A stretch of DNA of 64,000 nucleotides from assembly GCF_004135675.1 (NCBI RefSeq), contig NZ_QHLX01000006.1, positions 62,001-126,000 of the forward strand. Direction: 5' to 3'. Made by a program: the position numbers and the translations under genes. This document shows positions 8,771-51,898 of this stretch, in pieces (position 1 is the first letter of the stretch; each line of letters begins with the position of its first letter). The stretch comes from Marinitoga lauensis. GTDB lineage: Bacteria; Thermotogota; Thermotogae; Petrotogales; Petrotogaceae. The notes beneath the pieces were generated by a model. It had not been told where the DNA came from and made no database searches. It worked only from the letters and a program-made list of their open reading frames with translations.

Positions 8771-9997
8771 GTGTATGATTTTGTTGTGATAAAATATAGT
8801 GAAATTGGTACAAAAGGCAAAAATAGAAAAGTATTTGAAAGCAAACTAATGAATAACATAATTCTGCAATTAAATCACAAGGTAACAGCAAAAAAAATAT
8901 ATGGAAGAATTATTGTAACTCCTAAAGAAAATAAGAAAATAGATAAAAATATGTTGAATTCTTTAAAAAAGGTTTTTGGTATTAAATCCATATCTCCCGC
9001 TATAGAAGTAAAAAAAGATTATGAAGATATTAGAAATAATATAATAAAATTATTAAAAGATAAAAACATAACTTCCGGTTCATTTAAAGTGGATTCTAGA
9101 AGAACTGATAAATCTTTTCCTATTAGAAGTTTTGACCTAAATAAAAATCTCGGTGCGGACATTCTTGATGAATTTCCTGATTTATTCGTAGACGTACATA
9201 ATCCTGATTATTTGATTAGAGTAGAAATAAGGCACGAACTAGCTTTTGTTTATCTTGAAAACATAGAATGTTTTGCCGGATATCCCGTTGGAGCTGGTGG
9301 AAAAGCAAGTATAATGTTATCTGGTGGAATAGATAGTCCAGTGGCTGCATGGATAATGATGAAACGCGGAATGAAACTAAATGCTATTTCTTTTTATAGC
9401 CCTCCAAGTAATAATGAAAAAACAGTAATGAAATTAATAGAATTAAGCAAAAAATTAAGTGAATTTTATCCTTTTAATTTCTATCATTATATTATCCCAT
9501 TTACAGAAGTACAATTAGCTATTAAAAATTTGAATATTGAAAGTTATTCTTTAATTATGCAGAGACGTTCAATGTTAAGAATCGCATCTAAATTAGCTAA
9601 ACACACCCAAAGCAATGCTTTAATCACAGGAGAAAATTTAGGCCAGGTTGCTTCTCAAACATTGGAAAATATGATAACTATATCAGATGCTACTGATATG
9701 TTAATATTAAGACCTTTAGTAGGATATGAAAAACTTGAAATTGTTAAAAAAGCTCAGGAAATAGGAACATATGATATCTCTATCTGGCCTTATAAAGATA
9801 GTTGTGTAGCATTTTTGCCAAAAAAACCTGCTACAAAATCTTTCCCAGACAAAATGAAAAAATATGAAGAAAAAATCAATAATCTCTTAGAATTAGAATT
9901 AAATGCTTTAAAAAATAGTCTGGTTTATGTGATTAAAAATGGTGAAGTAATTGATAATTATGTATTCTCAGACAAAGAGGTGTTTAAAAGTGAATAA
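8771..9997 (+). CDS. thiI: tRNA 4-thiouridine synthetase ThiI
   Basis: 408 residues; start GTG 8771 after AGGAGG. It adenylates and thiolates U8 of tRNA and can also supply sulfur for thiamine thiazole. An N-terminal ferredoxin-like/THUMP region (to about residue 165) precedes a PP-loop ATPase with LSGGIDSPVAAW near residue 183 and the FAGYPVGAGGKA segment just before it. The C-terminal rhodanese domain found in E. coli ThiI is absent, as in many Gram-positive and thermophile versions, so a separate sulfur donor is expected. The end overlaps the plsC start by 8 bases. Confidence 0.95.
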   Translation: MYDFVVIKYSEIGTKGKNRKVFESKLMNNIILQLNHKVTAKKIYGRIIVTPKENKKIDKNMLNSLKKVFGIKSISPAIEVKKDYEDIRNNIIKLLKDKNITSGSFKVDSRRTDKSFPIRSFDLNKNLGADILDEFPDLFVDVHNPDYLIRVEIRHELAFVYLENIECFAGYPVGAGGKASIMLSGGIDSPVAAWIMMKRGMKLNAISFYSPPSNNEKTVMKLIELSKKLSEFYPFNFYHYIIPFTEVQLAIKNLNIESYSLIMQRRSMLRIASKLAKHTQSNALITGENLGQVASQTLENMITISDATDMLILRPLVGYEKLEIVKKAQEIGTYDISIWPYKDSCVAFLPKKPATKSFPDKMKKYEEKINNLLELELNALKNSLVYVIKNGEVIDNYVFSDKEVFKSE

Positions 9998-10736
9998 ATT
10001 TATTTTATTTTTAAAGCAATTATTGTTAACCATATGGTTTTATGTTGGTTTTTTTGGATATGTTGTTATTTATGGATCTTTAGTTTTATTAATTTCAAAA
10101 ATTATGAAAATGGTTTCCGGAAAAGATAAAGCTGATTCTTATTTAAGAAAAGTTGTTTCTAATTTTGGAAAACGTTCTTTTAAATTAATGGGAATTAATG
10201 TTAACGTAAAAAAAGATTTTGAATTAAAAGATTTAGAGAATGAACCATATATTATAATCGCAAATCATCAAAGCTTATTAGACATTCCTTTAATCATTGG
10301 CTATATTCATCCTGTTGGATTTATTGCAAAAAAAGAACTGGAAAAAGCACCTATTATTTCAACATACATAAAAGCTCTTGGTTCTGTATTTATTGATAGA
10401 AAAAATCCTACTCAAGCTGCAAAAGCCCTCAGAGAATTAAGAAAAAAATTAAATGAAGGCAGAAAACTTGCACTTTTCCCTGAAGGGACAAGAACTCTTG
10501 ATGGAAAAGTTAAACCTTTCAAAAAAGGTTCTTTAATGATTCCATACAGATATGGTATTAAAATCATTCCCGTTACTATAGATGGAACATATCAAATAAT
10601 AAAAAAAGGTGATTATCATTTAACACCTCACGAAGTTAAAGTAAGGATATTTAACCCAATCAATCCAAAAAACTTTGAAAATGAGGAAGAATTGAGAAAT
10701 TATGTTTACAATCTCATTTCATCAGAAATAAATTAA
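9990..10736 (+). CDS. plsC: 1-acyl-sn-glycerol-3-phosphate acyltransferase
   Basis: 248 residues from GTG 9990, chosen because GAGGTG lies at 9977-9982. A longer upstream start would run far into thiI. The enzyme acylates lysophosphatidic acid to phosphatidic acid at the inner membrane. An N-terminal hydrophobic anchor (about residues 8-35) is followed by the acyltransferase motifs NHQSLLD (HX4D, near residue 91) and FPEGTR (near residue 166). It overlaps thiI by 8 bp and is followed 39 bp later by the DUF151 gene. Confidence 0.93.
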   Translation: MNKFILFLKQLLLTIWFYVGFFGYVVIYGSLVLLISKIMKMVSGKDKADSYLRKVVSNFGKRSFKLMGINVNVKKDFELKDLENEPYIIIANHQSLLDIPLIIGYIHPVGFIAKKELEKAPIISTYIKALGSVFIDRKNPTQAAKALRELRKKLNEGRKLALFPEGTRTLDGKVKPFKKGSLMIPYRYGIKIIPVTIDGTYQIIKKGDYHLTPHEVKVRIFNPINPKNFENEEELRNYVYNLISSEIN

Positions 10737-10775: not shown

Positions 10776-11327
10776 ATGTATAAAAAGATCGATGTTATTA
10801 CTATGGGACTCGATAAAGTTTCAAATTCTCCCGTAGTTTTTTTACGAATAGAAAATACACATATAGGTCTTCCAATATGGATAGGTGCATGTGAAGCTAC
10901 TTACCTTGCCCTGGCTATTAATGAACAAAAAACACCAAGACCATTAACTCATGACCTTTTACTTAATATACTGGAAAATGAAGGATATTTTTTAAAGAAA
11001 ATAGAAATAAATAACATGGAAAATGATATATACTATTCCAATATTTTTCTTGAAAAAGATGGTAGCGAAATAGTAATAGACTCAAGACCTTCTGACGCAT
11101 TAATATTAGCTGTTAAAAGTAAAGTCCCAATATATGTTAAAGATAAATTGGCTATTGAAAATGGAATAGATATATCGTTTATCCCAATAGAGGATCATGA
11201 TTCTGAAAATGAAGAAAACAAGAGAAAAGAATTTAAGGACTTCCTGGAAAACTTTGATATTGACACTATAAAAAAGCACTTTTTTGACGAAGGGAATGAA
11301 ACCGATGAAAGTGATGACAATAAGTGA
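10776..11327 (+). CDS. DUF151 bifunctional nuclease family protein
   Basis: 183 residues. The first ~130 match the DUF151/BFN family (PVVFLRIENTHIGLPIWIGACEATYLA, then SRPSDALILAVKSKVPIYV), compact proteins described with nuclease activity in plants and conserved in thermophiles. The C-terminus is an acidic, helical tail. RBS AAAGGATG lies just upstream. The gene overlaps the polyprenyl synthase start by about 22 bases, so the two are probably translationally coupled. Confidence 0.87.
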   Translation: MYKKIDVITMGLDKVSNSPVVFLRIENTHIGLPIWIGACEATYLALAINEQKTPRPLTHDLLLNILENEGYFLKKIEINNMENDIYYSNIFLEKDGSEIVIDSRPSDALILAVKSKVPIYVKDKLAIENGIDISFIPIEDHDSENEENKRKEFKDFLENFDIDTIKKHFFDEGNETDESDDNK

Positions 11328-12162
11328 CTTTAAATATTTCTTTGATAAAAAATCTAATTCTTTTTTTGATTCTTTAAAAATGTCGCATATCTTAGAGGCA
11401 TCTCTGAAATATTCTTTTTTTTCTGGCGGAAAAAGATTGCGTCCATGGATAATTTATAATATTGGACGATATTATAATATAGATGAAGAAAAACTTCTTA
11501 AAATAGGGTTTGCCACTGAAATTGTTCATACAGCTTCTCTAATCCATGACGATCTGCCGGCTATAGATAATAGTGACTATCGCCGGGGAAGTGAATCAAA
11601 TCATAAAAAATTTGGTGAATGGCGAGCTATTTTAACAGGTGACCTGGGTTTCATTTTACCCTTTAAAATATTTGCAGAATTTGATAATGATGAATCAAAA
11701 TATTTAAGCGAATTTTTTTCTGAAACAATATTAAGCCTTATTGATGGTGAAACTTTGGATGTTTCATTTGAAAAAAATATAATTAATCCAACACAATCTG
11801 ATATCGAAAATATGTATATAAAAAAAACTTCAGCATTATTCGAATTTTCCTTTGCCTGTTCTCCATTATTGTTAAATAAAAAAGAAGAGTTTGAATATCT
11901 GAAAAAAGCAGGTAAGAACTTTGGAGTAGCTTTTCAGATTTATGATGATTTAAAAGATGTGTATGGAAAATTTGAAGATGTTGGAAAAGATTTAAATAAC
12001 GATGAAAACAAATTTACATTCTTGAAAATTCTATCTATAGATGAAGCTAAAACTTATGCTAATAATTTATTTAATGAAACAATTTCAATACTTTCAAATT
12101 TAAACTTAACTAATTTTATTGAAGAATTACAAAAAATAAAATCCTTAATTGAAAGGAAATGA
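11305..12162 (+). CDS. Polyprenyl diphosphate synthase (FPP/GGPP type)
   Basis: About 285 residues. It condenses isopentenyl diphosphate with allylic diphosphates to make C15-C20 isoprenoids. The first aspartate-rich motif is HDDLPAIDN (DDx4D, near residue 81), and the second is YDDLKD near residue 213. GGKRLRPW is the substrate-binding arginine loop. ATG 11305 is preferred (GAAGGGA at about 11289-11295); starts at 11296 and 11314 are also in frame. With dxr at 50-51 kb it belongs to the MEP isoprenoid route. Chain length cannot be read reliably. Confidence 0.9.
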   Translation: MKVMTISDFKYFFDKKSNSFFDSLKMSHILEASLKYSFFSGGKRLRPWIIYNIGRYYNIDEEKLLKIGFATEIVHTASLIHDDLPAIDNSDYRRGSESNHKKFGEWRAILTGDLGFILPFKIFAEFDNDESKYLSEFFSETILSLIDGETLDVSFEKNIINPTQSDIENMYIKKTSALFEFSFACSPLLLNKKEEFEYLKKAGKNFGVAFQIYDDLKDVYGKFEDVGKDLNNDENKFTFLKILSIDEAKTYANNLFNETISILSNLNLTNFIEELQKIKSLIERK

Positions 12163-12163
12163 G

Positions 12164-14689
12164 AATGGCTAAAAAAGAAAAGAAAACAGATGCTGGATTA
12201 AAAAAGAAAAAAAATTTGATCTAAATAAATTTGCAAATATTTTAAAAAATTTAAATTTAAAAAAACTGGCAAAAAATAAATTTAAAAGATATTATAAATA
12301 ATATCAAGAACTTCAAGCAACTTGAGAAAAAGAAGAAAATAATGTTGCTTGGAGGTTTTTTAGTTTTTATCATATTAATTGCTGGTATTGTTTTTTTTAT
12401 TCCCCGTTTTACCACCAAAAGATTAAAAATTGAAAAAGAGGCTAAGTCTGCTTCTATATCCGATTTATTTTTATACGTTCCTCCAGATGCTTTTCAATAC
12501 AATAAAACATTTACAATAAAACCCTTAAAAGAAAATTCAGCTGAATATCAAAATTTAAAAACTATGGGGAATTTTTATGGCCCAATTTATGAAATAATTC
12601 CTGATGATAAAAAAGAAGAGTCGGCTTTAAAACCTATTAAAATCAAATATAGAATTCCTATGGATCTTTATTATGGGGATAATTTCAATAATTTTTCAAT
12701 TATATATGCTTCAGACGATAATCCACCTATAATAAAAAAATTACCTGGTTGTGAAATATATAAAGATGAATCTATAGGTTCTTATGTTGTTCAGGCAAAT
12801 ACCTTTCACTTTTCAAAGTTTGGATTATACGTTGATCCTACTCCAAAAGAGGTTTCTTTTGGATTAAAAACATTGATAGAAAAACCCCTTCTTTAGAGCC
12901 TGATCTTATATTAGTGCCTGGTATAGATAATAATTTTCTTGGTTTTATACCAAATACACAAACTATAAATAATATATATGGGGAAAATGTGTGGAGCTTA
13001 TATTTTCCTAATAGAACTATATGGTATTATAAATACCCATTGTTAGAAACAAAACCAAAAAGCTATATGGATGCTTTTTTTGGATATTATATTAGAACTG
13101 GTTCAAATAGCTATCTCGAGTTCGAAGCTGAACGCTTTGCTTCAGAATTGAAAGCTAAACAAAATAAAAAATTTGACATAATAACTCAAGGAATTGGAAG
13201 TTTAATTGTTCGTTATGCTTTAGAGAAACATCCTGAGATAAAAAATGTCAGGACTATCAGTATGTTTTCACCTCCAAATAAAGGAATAAATACAGTTAAT
13301 CCAATTTATTATAATGTTATTTATAAAAAAAGCCCTGAAATTATAGAATTAACCTATGGACTTAATAAAGAAGAGTATAATTCCTTATTTTTAAATATTT
13401 CATCTAAAATTGAACTTATTTCTTCATACTATAAAGAATTATTACCAGACTCAAAATTCATAAAAAAATAAATTCATTAAAACGAAGAAAAGATATTAAA
13501 TATTATATATATACAGGAACCGTACCAGATATTACTGTTCATATAAAAAATACTAAATTAGCAGCTTTTTATCCCGAATTCATAAACGGTGATGGCGATG
13601 GCCTTGTTACAGTTGATAGCGCCAGACTTGATGGTGCAAAAATGTATACATTTAAACTTCCTTACAATAAATTGTTTTCTGATAACAACGTTTTAAAATT
13701 ACTCCAAAAGAATTTATCTTCTGGAATAGAAAAAGTAAACATACCAAGTATTACAGATGATTCATTCCAGAAAATAAAAAAGAGTTATCTGAAAAAATTA
13801 CTACTGAAGAAAAGAAAAAGGAAGCTATTTCTGAAATCTATAAAAAACCTTTAAATTATCAAAAAAAAGCTTTATTAAATTTTTCAGAGCAATTGTTATA
13901 TTTAAATAATATTACATATGGAAAAATATATAATTTAAATGGTAATATTCTTTTAGTTACAAATAAAGGTGTTTTTGATCTTGATGGAAAAAATATTTTA
14001 GGCAAAAAAATCTTAGGTAGCATAGAATATAAAAACAGACTATATATTACAACTAATGATGGAGTTTATGCTATTGATAATAGTTCACATGAATTTGTTA
14101 AAATTAGAAATATTGATTTTGATATTCATGACAATATTTTTTATTTACCAGAAATACGAAAATATATTTATGTTGATTATACTGATGGATTGGCAAATAT
14201 TTATGAAAATGATCAACTTATTGACAATAAGAAAGTGTTTATAAAGTTAAAAGTATTAAATAATGACTATTATATGGTTTTGGGAGACAAAATATTAAAA
14301 AGAAAAAACAATCAATGGAGAACTATCGTAACCAAATCTGGAATTGAAAATATAATAAAAAAGAATATAGATTATTTTGCAGACTATTTCTCCGTGCTTA
14401 TTATATATATCTTTTAACATCTGACTATAAATTATTGATATACGATACAAAAAATTCAAAAGTTCAAATTCTTGGAGATAGTGATGTCGGAAAATTAAAA
14501 ATGTTAGAAAATAATAATAAACTCTGGATTTTTGATAAAAATTATATTACATATATTGACATGGAAAATAAAGTATTTCCAGGCGAATATCAAACACTTA
14601 ATAATTCGGATATTATTGATATTACGGATTATGATAAAAATTCATTCTTAATTTTTCTAAAAAAAGATGGGGATTTGAGTTATGGATAG
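12164..14689 (+). CDS. Membrane-anchored ZU5-like/pseudo-alpha-beta-hydrolase/repeat-domain protein (six frame breaks)
   Basis: Merged from fragments. Breaks near 12210, 12268, 12885, 13465, 13770 and 14392 are each healed by one added base, giving about 840 residues. The N-terminus is lysine-rich, then one transmembrane helix (around 12342-12400). Next comes a ZU5-like beta-sandwich (YVPPDAFQYNKTFTI, YEIIPDD, KFGLYV). An alpha/beta-hydrolase region of the PGAP1/lipase type follows: LILVPGID, DIITQGIGSLIVRYALEKHP, FSPPNKGIN, NGDGDGLVTVDSARLDGA. The nucleophile elbow reads QGIGS where lipases have HSMGG, so the catalytic Ser (and its His neighbour) is missing. The C-terminal third resembles a beta-propeller (ILLVTNKGVFDLDGK, LYITTNDGVYAIDN, LLIYDTKNSKV). 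It begins 2 bases after the synthase stop and overlaps the TPR gene by 8 bases. Probably extracytoplasmic and non-catalytic. Confidence 0.6.
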
Positions 14690-15916
14690 CTCATTATTAA
14701 AAAAAATTACTTTAATCTTATTCTTACTATTAATATTTACTTTATTTGGCCAGACATTTCTGGATAAAGCAGAAGTGTACTATTTTAATGGAAAAAGCGC
14801 TTTTCAAACTGGAGAATACAAAAGCGCCGAAAGATTTTTTGAAGAATCTTTAAAGCTTTCTGCTGAAATTGAGATTAAGTATCCTGATATTAGATATATG
14901 CTTGGGTGGACGAAATTTTATTTAAAAAATATAATGAAGCAAAAAATTATTTAAAAGATTACACAAATGATCCAAAAGTTGCGCTTGCTCTAAAAAGTAT
15001 AGAAAATGGAAATATCCAGGAAAATCTACATTTTGAAACCTTAAAAATTAAATCCACTTTACCATCCACCGAATCTACATCAAATAATAATTTGAAAATC
15101 GGATGGTTTTATTATATATTAGTTGCATTTGTAATATTTTTTGTTGTAGCAGTTATGGCATTTTTAATATACTTTTTTATTTTAAAAAAATATTCATTTG
15201 GAGAAAAAGTTACGGAACTTAAAAACACTGAAGAATCTATGGAATTTAATGTATCCGAAGAAAAAGAAGAAGAAGCCGCAATTCCAATAGAAGAAATTCT
15301 TGAAGTAAAAATCGATGAGTTAGAAGAACTATGGATGAATATGAAAAGATGAAAAAGAAAATGGATATAGATGAAAGTGAACCTATTGAGCCAATTAGTG
15401 TTTCAAGTAATCAATCTATAGAAACTAATACTGAAACAAATTTAGAAGAAATTGATGTTAACTCTTTATTAGATGAACCATTGCCCGAAGAAACTAAAGA
15501 TATTAATATGGATATTGAAGATGTCTTAGAAGATAATAATGTAGAAGAAAAAATAAGTTCAGAAAATATCGAAGAGCTATCTGATAATGAAACAGAAAAT
15601 ATAGATGAAGAAAATAATGAAAATAATGAAGATAATGAAGATAATAATATTGAATCTTTTATAGAAAAGAAAAAATGACTGATCTGGATAATATAGAAAC
15701 TGTTAAACCTAATATAGATGTAATTACTAAGTATAATAAAATTATGTCTGAACCTGAAGGAGCAATAGTTGTTTCAAACGTTAAAGGATTAGAAAGCTTA
15801 GAAAAGATTGACGAAGAAGTCGCAAAGAAAGGGGAATATTTTCAAAAAGTGATTTACATGCAATCTTTAAAGAAATTTTTGCAGATAAAAATAGAGATCA
15901 CCTTATGATAGAATAA
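14682..15916 (+). CDS. Signal/TPR/transmembrane protein with acidic cytoplasmic tail (four frame breaks)
   Basis: I do not recognise a named family. Merged from fragments with breaks near 14905, 15325, 15672 and 15846, each healed by one base (about 412 residues). An N-terminal hydrophobic signal (residues ~8-25) leads into a TPR-like region (AEVYYFNGKSAFQTGEYKSAERFFEESLKL). A strong transmembrane helix follows (around 15110-15190), then a very acidic low-complexity tail (runs of E, D, N around 15460-15660) and a short C-terminal domain ending KEIFADKNRDHLMIE. The start overlaps the pseudo-hydrolase gene by 8 bp, so the two proteins probably act together: one anchored outside, one spanning with an outside TPR face and an inside tail. 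The gene ends 5 bases from the tRNA gene on the other strand. Confidence 0.6.
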
Positions 15917-25972: not shown

Positions 25973-25983
25973 AGGTGATTTTT

Positions 25984-27590
25984 GTGTTTTTGAGAGTAGT
26001 TAAAAATAACAAAGGTGTTGAATATTTAAGAATTGTTGAAAGTTATAGGGAAAATGGTAAGATAAAGCAAAGAACTGTTGCAAACTTAGGAAGGATTGAC
26101 TCTTTTAGCGAAAATGAAGCGAAAAATATAGTAAATAAACTCATACAAATATTTGATTTAAAAAATTATATTGATACAGAAGATATAAAAAAGGCACCGG
26201 ATAAAAAGAATTACGGAGCCAAAGTAATAGTAAATAAGATATTCGAAAGATATGAGATGAAAAGATATTTTGAAAGACTGGATAAAGAAATAAAATACAA
26301 TGCAGAAGAGATGCTAAAAATAATGGTGATGAATAGAATAGTAGAACCGAAAAGTAAATTGGGAATATTTAATAATTTAGAGTATTTTGGATATAACAAA
26401 GTGGAAGTTAAAAAAGAAAAAGACCTGGAAGAAAAAGATGTAATGCTGCACTGGTTATACAGAACATTGGATATATTGGCAGATAATAAAGAGTCGATAG
26501 AAAAACATATGTATAATCAAAGGATAAGTTTGTTTAATACAACGGTAGATTTAGTATTTTACGATGTAACAACATTAGCGTTTGAACCACAACAAACAAA
26601 TGAAATATTACAAATGGGATATTCAAAAGATAAGAAATTTAATGAATCACAAATAGTATTAGGGATGTCAATAGATCAAGATAGAATGCCAGTTAGTTTT
26701 GATATATATGCAGGAAATACATTCGAAGGGCATACATTCAAAGATTCAATAGAAAAAATGAAAAAAGAATATCAATTAGGAAAAGTAATAGTAGTAGCAG
26801 ATAGAGGAATGATGAGTAAAAAAAATATAGAAGTAGTAGAAAATTCTAATTATGAATTCATAGTAGGAAAATCAATAAAACAGTTAAAAAAGTAAATATA
26901 TTTGAAGGAGAATTCATAGAAATAGCAAAAGGAATAAAATATAGAGAAGTAGAATATGAAAATAAAAGATTACTCATAATATATTCAGAAGAAAGAGCCA
27001 AAAAAGACAGAGCAGATAGACTACGATTAATAGAAAAAGCGAAAAAAATGTTAGAAGAAGGAAATATAGATTCAAAAAGTAAAAGAGGAGCGAAAAAATA
27101 TTTAAAAGAACAGAATAAACAAAATTATATACTGGACATAGAAAAAATAGAAAATGATGAAAAATACGATGGATACTATGGAATAATAACAAACACAAAA
27201 CTATCTCCAAAAGAAATATTAGAACAATATCATACATTATGGAAAGTAGAAGAAACATTTAGAACATTAAAAAATTATCTTGAAACAAGACCGGTATTTC
27301 ATTGGACACCAAAAAGAATAAAAGGACATATTGTAATGAGTTTCATATCTTACATAATTCAAAGAACACTAGAATTAGAACTGGAAAAAAATAATGTTGA
27401 ATACTCTCATGAAAAAATAAGAGAAGCTATTAAAAATATGGAATACATTGAATTTAAAACACAAAAGCAACATCTTGTAGCGAGAATGAATTTAAATAAA
27501 TTAGGACAAAGAATATTAAATACATTAAATATCCCTGTACCAAAAATAATATCACCTTATACAGAATTCAAAGAAAAATATAAAATTTAG
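25984..27590 (+). CDS. IS1634-family transposase (one frame break)
   Basis: About 535 residues from GTG 25984 (AGAGGTGAT upstream). The single break at 26890 is in a six-A run; a seventh A restores the frame. DDE catalytic residues can be placed in FYDVTTLAFEP (near residue 194), VVADRGMMSKKN (near 273) and KVEETFRTLKNYLETRPVFHW (near 423), as in the IS4-like/IS1634 families. The N-terminus (RIVESYRENGKIKQRTVANLGRI) is the usual family start. Probably functional if the frame break is an assembly error. Confidence 0.9.
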
Positions 27591-39237: not shown

Positions 39238-39829
39238 TTACCTTTCGTATTTTTTTAATTCCTCTACCAGTTTATAAACATTTGTGTATGGATTCTTTTT
39301 AGAAAAACTTTTTATATCTTTTTTCAACTCTTCAAGTTTTTTAGCATTATCTATAGCTATTTCCATTTTATCTTTTAGTTTATTATACATATCTTCACTA
39401 TTTTTTTCATATTCAGGAATTTTTTCCTTCAATTTTTTTAAACAATGTTCTTTACTCAAAGATGCTTGATAAAAATCATAATGTAGCAAATACCATAATT
39501 CAAAGCATGGATTAGAATAAATAGCTTTATAACCATTTTTTTCAAGTTTATTTATAGTATTGTTAAAATCTTGATCTTTTACTTCATCTTTATCAAAAAC
39601 AAACCATATCTGATCATAATCATTTTCTTTAAAATATTTTTTGGCTGCATCCAATAAAACATTTGCTCCTCTTCCTTCCCTTTAACTTGTGCATTTGGAA
39701 CTTCAAACGCTTCGAAATAATACTTTTCTGTTTTTTCTCCTTCGCACACTATTAATATTGAAGGTTTCATAGCTCTTATATCTTTTTTCTTTTACTTCTC
39801 TTTTTATTAAAATGATTCTTTCGACTCAT
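39238..39829 (-). CDS. rloB: RloB-family protein (two frame breaks)
   Basis: About 197 residues. The frame is broken at the GG near 39663 and an A-run near 39794. When both are healed the gene starts at ATG 39829 with the basic lead MSRKNHFNKKRSKRKKDIR typical of RloB, then ILIVCEGEKTEKYYFEAF and WFVFDKDEVKDQDFN, a Toprim-like arrangement (E in the first strand, DxD later). It overlaps the RloA stop by 4 bases (ATGA). The family pairs with RloA ATPases in phage-defence (AbiL-like) and anticodon-nuclease loci. Toxic nuclease activity is inferred. Confidence 0.82.
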
Positions 39830-41072
39830 TCTATATCAAATCCTTTTAAAATTTTCCTCAAATACGGTATTGCTCCATATTTACCTTTTAAATATTCCTT
39901 TTCAAAATTAGCGTTCTTTCTTACCCCTTTATTTCCAAAAGCGAATATAATTCAGATTTCCCATATTTATCTTTACTTACAAACCATATCTGATCTCTGC
40001 TAAATAACTCAGAATTTAAAATAAGTGTATTATGCGTTGTAAAAATTAATTGAGCATTTTTCTTGTTTTTTTCCGAATGGAAAAGTTCTATAATTGTTTT
40101 TAATAGCAAAGGGTGAATACGTGTATCAAGTTCATCTATAAATAATATAGAACCATTTTTTAAAGTTGCCAATATTGGGCCTAAAATCCCAAAATACTTT
40201 TTAGTTCCCTCGGATTCTTCTTTCAAGAAATCAAATTCAATATTTTCTAAAAAATTATTATTTTCATCAAAAAACGGATGATAAGTTATAATTTTATTTG
40301 AATAAATCTTTTTATTTTTTGTCGAAATAATTCCCATATCATTTATACTTAATGGAACTTCTTCACCTATTTTTATTTCTATTTTTTTAGTTTTAAAATC
40401 GCTTATTCCCATATCTGCATTTTTCAACATATTTAAAAATTCTTCCTTATTAATAATTCCTTTTTCAATAAAATCTAATGCAATTAATAGAGGAAAGTCT
40501 GTGGATATAAAGTTCACATTTTGAAAAAATTTCATTATTTTAATTGCAGTTTGGCTATTCCATTGGGCCAAAGATGAAAGAAAAAGCGTATTTTCTTTTG
40601 TTTTTTCTTCAACACCTTTTCCTTCATTAAATCTTCCTCTTGTAAATTTTTGTCCATCCCTTTCAAAAATCCTTGCTTCACGACCTTTTGGCCTGTAATA
40701 AAGCCATTCACTTTCAATTATTCCTTCTTTTATTGAAAAACCATATCTATAATAAACATTGTCTATTATAAATCTACATTCAAAAATAGTAGGCTCATTT
40801 AAAAATCTTTTATTCAACTTAAAACGTTCATCAGGAATTTCAAAAGTTGGTTCAAATTTAGCAGATTTTAAAATAAGGTCTATATAGAACTTAAAAGCTT
40901 TAAATACATTACTTTTTCCACCGGCATTAGGGCCATAAATTGCCGCTGTTTTTAATAATTTAAACTTTTCAGCATTAAAACTATTTTTTGCTTCTTTATC
41001 ATCTGCAATCATTGAAAACTCTGTTTCATCTGCAAATGATTTAAAATTATAAAAATTAAAATCTATCAACAT
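39826..41072 (-). CDS. rloA: RloA-type AAA ATPase (one frame break at the C-terminus)
   Basis: About 415 residues. The N-terminus is MLIDFNFYNFKSFADETEFSM, the P-loop IYGPNAGGKSNVFKAF, the SMC/ABC-like Walker B GSILFIDELDTRIHPLLL, and the H-loop FTTHNTLIL. The given frame stops at 39921. One more G in the GGGG at about 39934 extends it with GVRKNANFEKEYLKGKYGAIPYLR to a TGA overlapping the RloB start. The restored tail is typical of RloA and supports the correction. Together with RloB it forms a probable two-gene abortive-infection system. Confidence 0.87.
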
Positions 41073-51329: not shown

Positions 51330-51898
51330 TTTCGCTTCGCGAAAGGTTTAAGGTTTATAGAATTTTATTATTAAAATATTTTTCCTAAAACCCTTCACGT
51401 AGTGAAGTGTTTTCGCTTCGCGAAAGATTTAAAGTTTATTTTTTTATTTTACAATAAAAATATTTTTCCTAAAACCTTTCACGTAGTGAAGTGTTTTCGC
51501 TTCGCGAAAGGTTTAAGGTTTATAGAATTTTATTATTAAAATATTTTTCCTAAAACCCTTCACGTAGTGAAGTGTTTTCGCTTCGCGAAAGATTTAAAGT
51601 TTATTTTTTTATTTTACAATAAAAATATTTTTCCTAAAACCCTTCACGTAGTGAAGTGTTTTCGCTTCGCGAAAGATTTAAAGTTTATTTTTTTATTTTA
51701 CAATAAAAATATTTTTCCTAAAACCCTTCACGTAGTGAAGTGTTTTCGCTTCGCGAAAGATTTAAAGTTTATTTTTTTATTTTACAATAAAAATATTTTT
51801 CCTAAAACCCTTCACGTAGTGAAGTGTTTTCGCTTCGCGAAAGGTTTAAGGTTTATAGAATTTTATTATTAAAATATTTTTCCTAAACCTTTCGAGAA
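51330..51898. repeat. Tandem array of seven 81/84-bp palindromic repeats
   Basis: Each unit contains two back-to-back hairpins: CTTCAC-GTA-GTGAAG and TTTCGC-TTC-GCGAAA, joined by TGT, and an AT-rich linker. The second hairpin recurs at 51331, 51412, 51496, 51577, 51661, 51745 and 51829, with spacings 81, 84, 81, 84, 84, 84. Two linker types alternate: one with GGTTTAAGGTTTATAG, one with GATTTAAAGTTTATTT. The last unit decays into TTTCGAGAATCGAAG. There are no unique spacers, so it is not CRISPR. It fills the gap between dxr and the envelope operon. Confidence 0.95.

Follow-up and report, generated by a model that had tools for sequence, protein, structure and literature searches.

A membrane-anchored pseudo-lipase with a predicted beta-propeller, inherited together with a TPR protein in Thermotogota

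Most known non-catalytic proteins of the alpha/beta-hydrolase fold whose function is clear are animal proteins. Neuroligin and the cholinesterase-like adhesion proteins are membrane-anchored and carry an inactive, extracytoplasmic hydrolase domain. The NDRG family (NDRG2/NDRG3) consists of non-enzymatic proteins in which the triad of the alpha/beta-hydrolase fold is substituted (PMC7022630). Here we describe a bacterial example from Marinitoga lauensis, encoded in a 64,000-nucleotide stretch of DNA (the window, positions 1-64000). It is kept across most of its phylum and has a domain order that curated families do not match.

Domain architecture and catalytic columns

The features of the gene, which we call the pseudo-lipase gene, are as follows.

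12165-14689, + strand: gene for the pseudo-lipase/propeller membrane protein, about 850 codons when intact, delimited from the intact orthologues L002-L006
12342-12410, + strand: N-terminal transmembrane anchor (L002 residues ~60-83) following a Lys-rich tail, from helix 60-83 of the model and a hydropathy scan
12447-12842, + strand: all-beta sandwich domain (L002 residues ~98-232) of no known family, from the models
12898-13735, + strand: lipase-like alpha/beta-hydrolase domain (L002 residues ~250-525), from the model, Foldseek and weak Pfam matches under cut-off
13187-13201, + strand: nucleophile elbow QGIGS, with a Gly codon at the Ser position (13190-13192), from the alignment and the model (strand 342-347, G348, helix 349-360)
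13597-13599, + strand: Asp of GDGxV, counterpart of the lipase catalytic Asp, invariant (53/53)
13663-13665, + strand: Tyr at the catalytic His position, from alignment to active paralogues; aromatic in 49/53
13896-14686, + strand: C-terminal seven-bladed beta-propeller (L002 residues ~572-851), from the model and Foldseek propeller matches

The gene starts at the ATG at 12165, or at 12159, overlapping the upstream stop, and frameshifts split it over several frames in the M. lauensis assembly. Six congeners carry it, five as an uninterrupted ORF of 849-855 aa and the sixth (G006) likewise frameshifted, and the hydrolase domains of the five intact copies are 82-98% identical to the corresponding window piece (185 residues). 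Frameshifts also interrupt the TPR gene described below, lgt, two peptide-ABC permeases, a DEAD-box helicase, aro genes and a methyltransferase; split genes throughout the window point to systematic indel errors in this assembly, a draft that is 88% complete and lies in 18 contigs. Because five congeners are intact and many neighbours are broken alike, the breaks in the window copy are most likely assembly errors, a real lesion in the M. lauensis strain being the other possibility.

We modelled the closest intact orthologue, L002 (851 aa), at full length from a 16-sequence alignment, with a mean pLDDT of 75.6. Because the propeller swamped the fold search with the whole model, a second model was built of the sandwich and hydrolase domains, using 50 sequences from the whole class (pLDDT 93, pTM 0.91). 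The L002 model runs from a disordered Lys-rich start through helix 60-83, a beta-rich domain and an alpha/beta domain to a C-terminal propeller, whose seven four-stranded blades (pLDDT ~90) were counted from the strand list. The N-terminal anchor, also named in the original prediction, is single and is found by the hydropathy scan in 50 of the 53 orthologues; most have a basic tail, although some lineages have a shorter one or one with almost no net charge. The sequence of the sandwich, predicted to be ZU5-like, does not bear that name out: neither a Pfam match in any of 31 members nor a PDB sequence match was found. In the fold searches, run with models that also held the other domains, the lists were taken up by lipases or propellers. 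The repeat strands do correspond to a predicted seven-bladed propeller, at the C-terminus, and the domain order that had been called unusual is covered by no curated Pfam or NCBIfam family.

For the hydrolase domain, Foldseek places bacterial lipases on top of hundreds of hydrolase fold matches, with a target-normalised TM of 0.71 for BlEst2. The predicted model has the central sheet and the strand-turn-helix elbow of the alpha/beta-hydrolase fold superfamily, so that the structure prediction proposed at the outset returns, in the domain model, a hydrolase fold with intact elbow geometry. None of the Pfam models Palm_thioest, PGAP1 and LCAT scores above its curated cut-off (Palm_thioest reaches 21.0 against 26.8 with the window part). 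The core motifs listed in the original prediction are all present on the + strand: (L)ILVPGID ends at about 12925, FSPPNKG lies at 13265-13285 and GDGDG at 13588-13602.

The triad was examined in an alignment of 53 orthologues with three small lipase paralogues of the same class (L109-L111), which keep AHSMGG or AHSKGG together with the Asp and the His. The window reads TQGIGS at the elbow. Among the orthologues the Ser column holds Gly in 43, Glu in 5, Asp in 4 and Ser in 1, and the Asp column holds Asp in all 53. The His column holds Phe (39), Tyr (5), Trp (5), Ala (2), Ser (1) or Val (1), and His in none, with a His two positions before it in one orthologue and one position after it in another. 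The single Ser elbow, ANSVGG, belongs to L009 (contig 330 of G020, an uncultured Petrotoga-like MAG), which lacks a nearby His and falls within a clade whose other members carry Gly; none of the 53 has both Ser and His. On the gene tree the elbow departs from Gly four times, twice to Asp and once each to Ser and Glu.

In the model the elbow Gly forms the turn between strand and helix, at the exact nucleophile site (pLDDT 93). Because the ORF is uninterrupted in five of six congeners, this Gly is genuine; sequencing error as the source of the absent Ser is ruled out by these congeners and the 53 orthologues. The original prediction was therefore right to read QGIGS in place of HSMGG, and too narrow in holding that just the Ser was lost, as the catalytic His is gone too and only the Asp is invariant. 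Because the nucleophile is replaced by Gly, Asp or Glu and the His by an aromatic residue, the lipase domain is predicted to be incapable of Ser-His-Asp chemistry. That the Asp never varies might reflect some remaining part in chemistry, though GDGxV is also structural.

Conservation, gene order and co-inheritance

Of the 103 Thermotogota genomes, 77 carry the pseudo-lipase, each of them once, as judged with a sandwich-hydrolase profile and also with a full-length profile, and its gene tree groups by genome family, as expected for vertical descent. Two scans of genome contigs returned no relatives beyond Thermotogota, the first finding none and the second Thermotogota records only (short patterns); no relatives were found on plasmids or viral contigs in short-pattern scans, which distant relatives in other phyla may escape. 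We propose that the triad was lost before Thermotogota diversified, which would make the protein an ancient pseudoenzyme of the phylum. Within the genus of M. lauensis, dN/dS is about 0.05-0.12 for the hydrolase domain and 0.04-0.11 for the sandwich, and is higher for the propeller; between the window and L002 the hydrolase piece gives 0.006 at a dS of 0.78. The hydrolase domain is thus under strong purifying selection, and because a dead enzyme is so well kept, we infer a function other than catalysis.

Most loci share one gene order: acyltransferase, DUF151, polyprenyl synthetase, pseudo-lipase, TPR protein. The corresponding neighbours in the window are the following.

9951-10736, + strand: acyltransferase (PlsC-like) gene, conserved upstream neighbour, from Pfam PF01553 and synteny
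10776-11327, + strand: DUF151/bifunctional nuclease domain gene, conserved upstream neighbour, from Pfam PF02577; homologue of TM0160 (PDB 1vjl)
11284-12162, + strand: polyprenyl synthetase gene, conserved upstream neighbour, from Pfam PF00348 on the L022 orthologue and synteny
14682-15678, + strand: TPR membrane protein gene, frameshifted here, from Pfam TPR_2 on the intact L022 copy, synteny and co-occurrence

The TPR gene overlaps the pseudo-lipase gene by 8 nt in the window. Of the 47 loci with an automatically placed pseudo-lipase, 38 have the TPR gene immediately downstream, the frames overlapping in most. The TPR protein begins, in most members, with a hydrophobic stretch; one or two TPR units, another hydrophobic, transmembrane segment and an acidic C-terminal tail follow. 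The net charge of this tail lies between -6 and -63 in each of the 32 members aligned. In a Thermotoga genome (G090) the pseudo-lipase follows a polyprenyl synthase that scores 586 bits to PDB 2ftz over 272 residues. We take 2ftz to be TM0161 of T. maritima, which appears to carry the pseudo-lipase right after this synthase; its member would presumably be about TM0162, a number reckoned from TM0161. Literature searches under the locus names of T. maritima turned up no relevant paper.

In Fervidobacteriaceae-like genomes the polyprenyl synthase no longer adjoins the pseudo-lipase and the TPR gene lies elsewhere. A conserved membrane protein of 203-221 aa, which starts like MLHLFLGHFVADHG and has no Pfam match, follows the pseudo-lipase there (L080, L081, L106, L093-L096, L107).

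Elsewhere in the window we observed a transposase-like gene in two pieces (25975-27590, +), two adjacent genes resembling an RloA/RloB-type ATPase pair that is possibly defence-related (39238-41072, -), and a tandem repeat of about 90 bp read as an ORF (51567-51872; KCFRFAKDLKFIFLFYNKNIFPKTLHVV repeated).

The pseudo-lipase and the TPR gene are gained and lost together. Counting strong matches (E below 1e-30) in the 103 genomes, 76 have both and 25 neither, with one exception each way: G055 has only the pseudo-lipase and G021 only the TPR gene, and these drafts are 71% and 79% complete. In G021 a C-terminal fragment of the pseudo-lipase adjoins the TPR gene. Linkage does not account for one of the joint absences. 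In genera g27, g28, g29 and g31, of one family, both genes are kept but lie far from each other, with the TPR gene in another context, in several loci beside a Rho-like transcription factor gene. Genus g30 (G081-G084) is without either gene, and a tree of two concatenated MreB copies nests it in that family, next to g29 and with g31 and g27/g28 outside. Because g30 is nested among genera that keep the two genes apart, it is a case of two unlinked genes lost together. Family f2 (G038-G054, 17 genomes), which is probably Kosmotogaceae, also has neither gene. Independent joint losses are few, namely g30 (the clearly unlinked one), the whole of f2 and some draft MAGs, in which absence of the pair may be assembly loss. 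MreB, the sole other gene compared against the joint-absence pattern, served as a control and does not follow it. Such co-occurrence could mean a common pathway rather than contact; profile comparison may find further members of the co-inherited set.

Two candidate links were rejected. mreB stands beside the locus in one family, but MreB is present at some level in 103/103 genomes, those without the pair included, which argues against a link to cell-shape genes; the Pfam MreC model is too insensitive in these genomes. Homologues of the toga protein OmpA are reported throughout the Thermotogales, Kosmotoga and Mesotoga among them (PMC3387000), yet the pair is absent from f2, so that, with f2 taken as Kosmotogaceae, there is no simple toga correlation.

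Proposed function of the pair

The reading we favour, with somewhat better than even confidence, is that the pseudo-lipase serves without catalysis as a scaffold or ligand binder in the membrane and has the TPR protein as its partner. Because Ser-His-Asp chemistry appears to be impossible, the lipase domain is most likely a binding or scaffolding module, and the ancient lipase domain would have become a recognition module. We propose a single-pass protein whose N-terminus anchors it in the inner membrane. The Lys-rich tail would probably be cytoplasmic, and the sandwich, the dead lipase domain and the propeller would lie outside. The TPR protein would have its TPR probably outside and its acidic tail inside. 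The sequences of the two proteins thus suggest a topology in which the main domains of both are outside and oppositely charged tails inside. The product of the overlapping downstream gene may then act with the pseudo-lipase outside the inner membrane, and the two proteins could dock through their charged cytoplasmic tails and their outer domains to form a physical complex. The pair may also have a role in the envelope, in building or anchoring the toga. A binding or scaffolding role was part of the original prediction, and the fold kept without its nucleophile, the confident elbow, the phylum-wide loss and the strong selection speak for it; the loss proved wider than the Ser, and the TPR partner had been missed.

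A more specific version is that the two proteins form a Thermotogota-specific inner-membrane complex, catalysis having been lost before the phylum diversified, whose extracytoplasmic part organises the peculiar envelope, the toga. We offer this version tentatively, as a possibility with the balance of probability against it.

The main rival, which we judge rather improbable, is a ligand or lipid sensor for envelope lipid metabolism, in which the pocket of the dead lipase would bind an acyl chain or polyprenyl lipid and report on what the presumably co-transcribed acyltransferase and polyprenyl synthase make. The lipase fold of the domain and the acyltransferase, DUF151 and polyprenyl synthetase genes upstream in most loci agree with such a role. 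The gene nevertheless persists in the Fervidobacteriaceae-like genomes without an adjoining polyprenyl synthase, bulky aromatics in place of the catalytic His may fill the pocket, and operon partners may share expression only.

Three further explanations are less likely. It is improbable that the pair serves in envelope assembly, the propeller taking the part of BamB and the TPR protein that of BamD. BamB is among the Foldseek matches of the C-terminus, all of the top ones being propellers, and the TPR stretch weakly matches BamD/YfiO models; WD40 and designed propellers, however, score as well as BamB or better, BamD scores far under its cut-off, and the anchor is a transmembrane helix rather than a lipoprotein signal. 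Very improbable, too, is a decaying gene, with the absent Ser and the frameshifts as signs of a pseudogene in M. lauensis. Both the window copy and that of G006 are frameshifted, but many other window genes, housekeeping genes included, are broken alike in an incomplete genome, the ORF is intact in five congeners and the gene is found across the class, and the hydrolase part has the very low dN/dS given above. Least probable of all is an active hydrolase with other chemistry, such as the Asp nucleophile that haloalkane dehalogenases use. Four orthologues do carry Asp at the elbow and five carry Glu, and the GDGxV Asp is invariant, but the elbow is Gly in 43/53 and the catalytic column has no His, a residue that Asp-nucleophile alpha/beta-hydrolases also require.

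For the favoured reading of a scaffold or ligand-binding protein, the co-inherited TPR partner makes a concrete test possible. The pair offers a lead into the poorly understood Thermotogota envelope, and both structure and partner should be approachable in Thermotoga maritima.

Comparison with known hydrolase-fold proteins

The best fold matches are the family I lipases of Proteus mirabilis (4gw3) and Pseudomonas aeruginosa (1ex9) and BlEst2 of Bacillus licheniformis (6wpy), with TM values of at most 0.71 and 12-16% identity. The pseudo-lipase retains their GDGxV and elbow turn; unlike them, it lacks the Ser and the His and adds a single-pass anchor, a beta-sandwich and a propeller. Closer to home, the small PGAP1/LCAT-like lipases of Thermotogota (L109-L111), of the same class, are distant homologues of the hydrolase domain, but keep Ser-Asp-His, are about 350 aa long and have no propeller.

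Other likenesses are to proteins in which a hydrolase fold serves another end. The mS79 protein of the Tetrahymena mitoribosome (6z1p chain BK) places a lipase-like fold in a multi-protein assembly and is a weak sequence and fold match; it is a soluble ribosomal protein and has no other domains in common with the pseudo-lipase. NDRG2 is among the fold matches of the hydrolase domain, and the pseudo-lipase, with substitutions in its triad, is probably non-enzymatic as well. NDRG proteins, however, are eukaryotic, have neither membrane anchor nor propeller and have all triad residues substituted, whereas the pseudo-lipase keeps the Asp; the likeness shown here is one of fold, not of sequence. 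Neuroligins would work like the pseudo-lipase if the scaffold reading is right, although they come from animals, belong to a different hydrolase subfamily and have a different domain order. As expected of such a scaffold, the pseudo-lipase has lost its triad under a conserved fold and under selection. On the evidence here, it is a member of neither the NDRG family nor the neuroligins, but would work like them.
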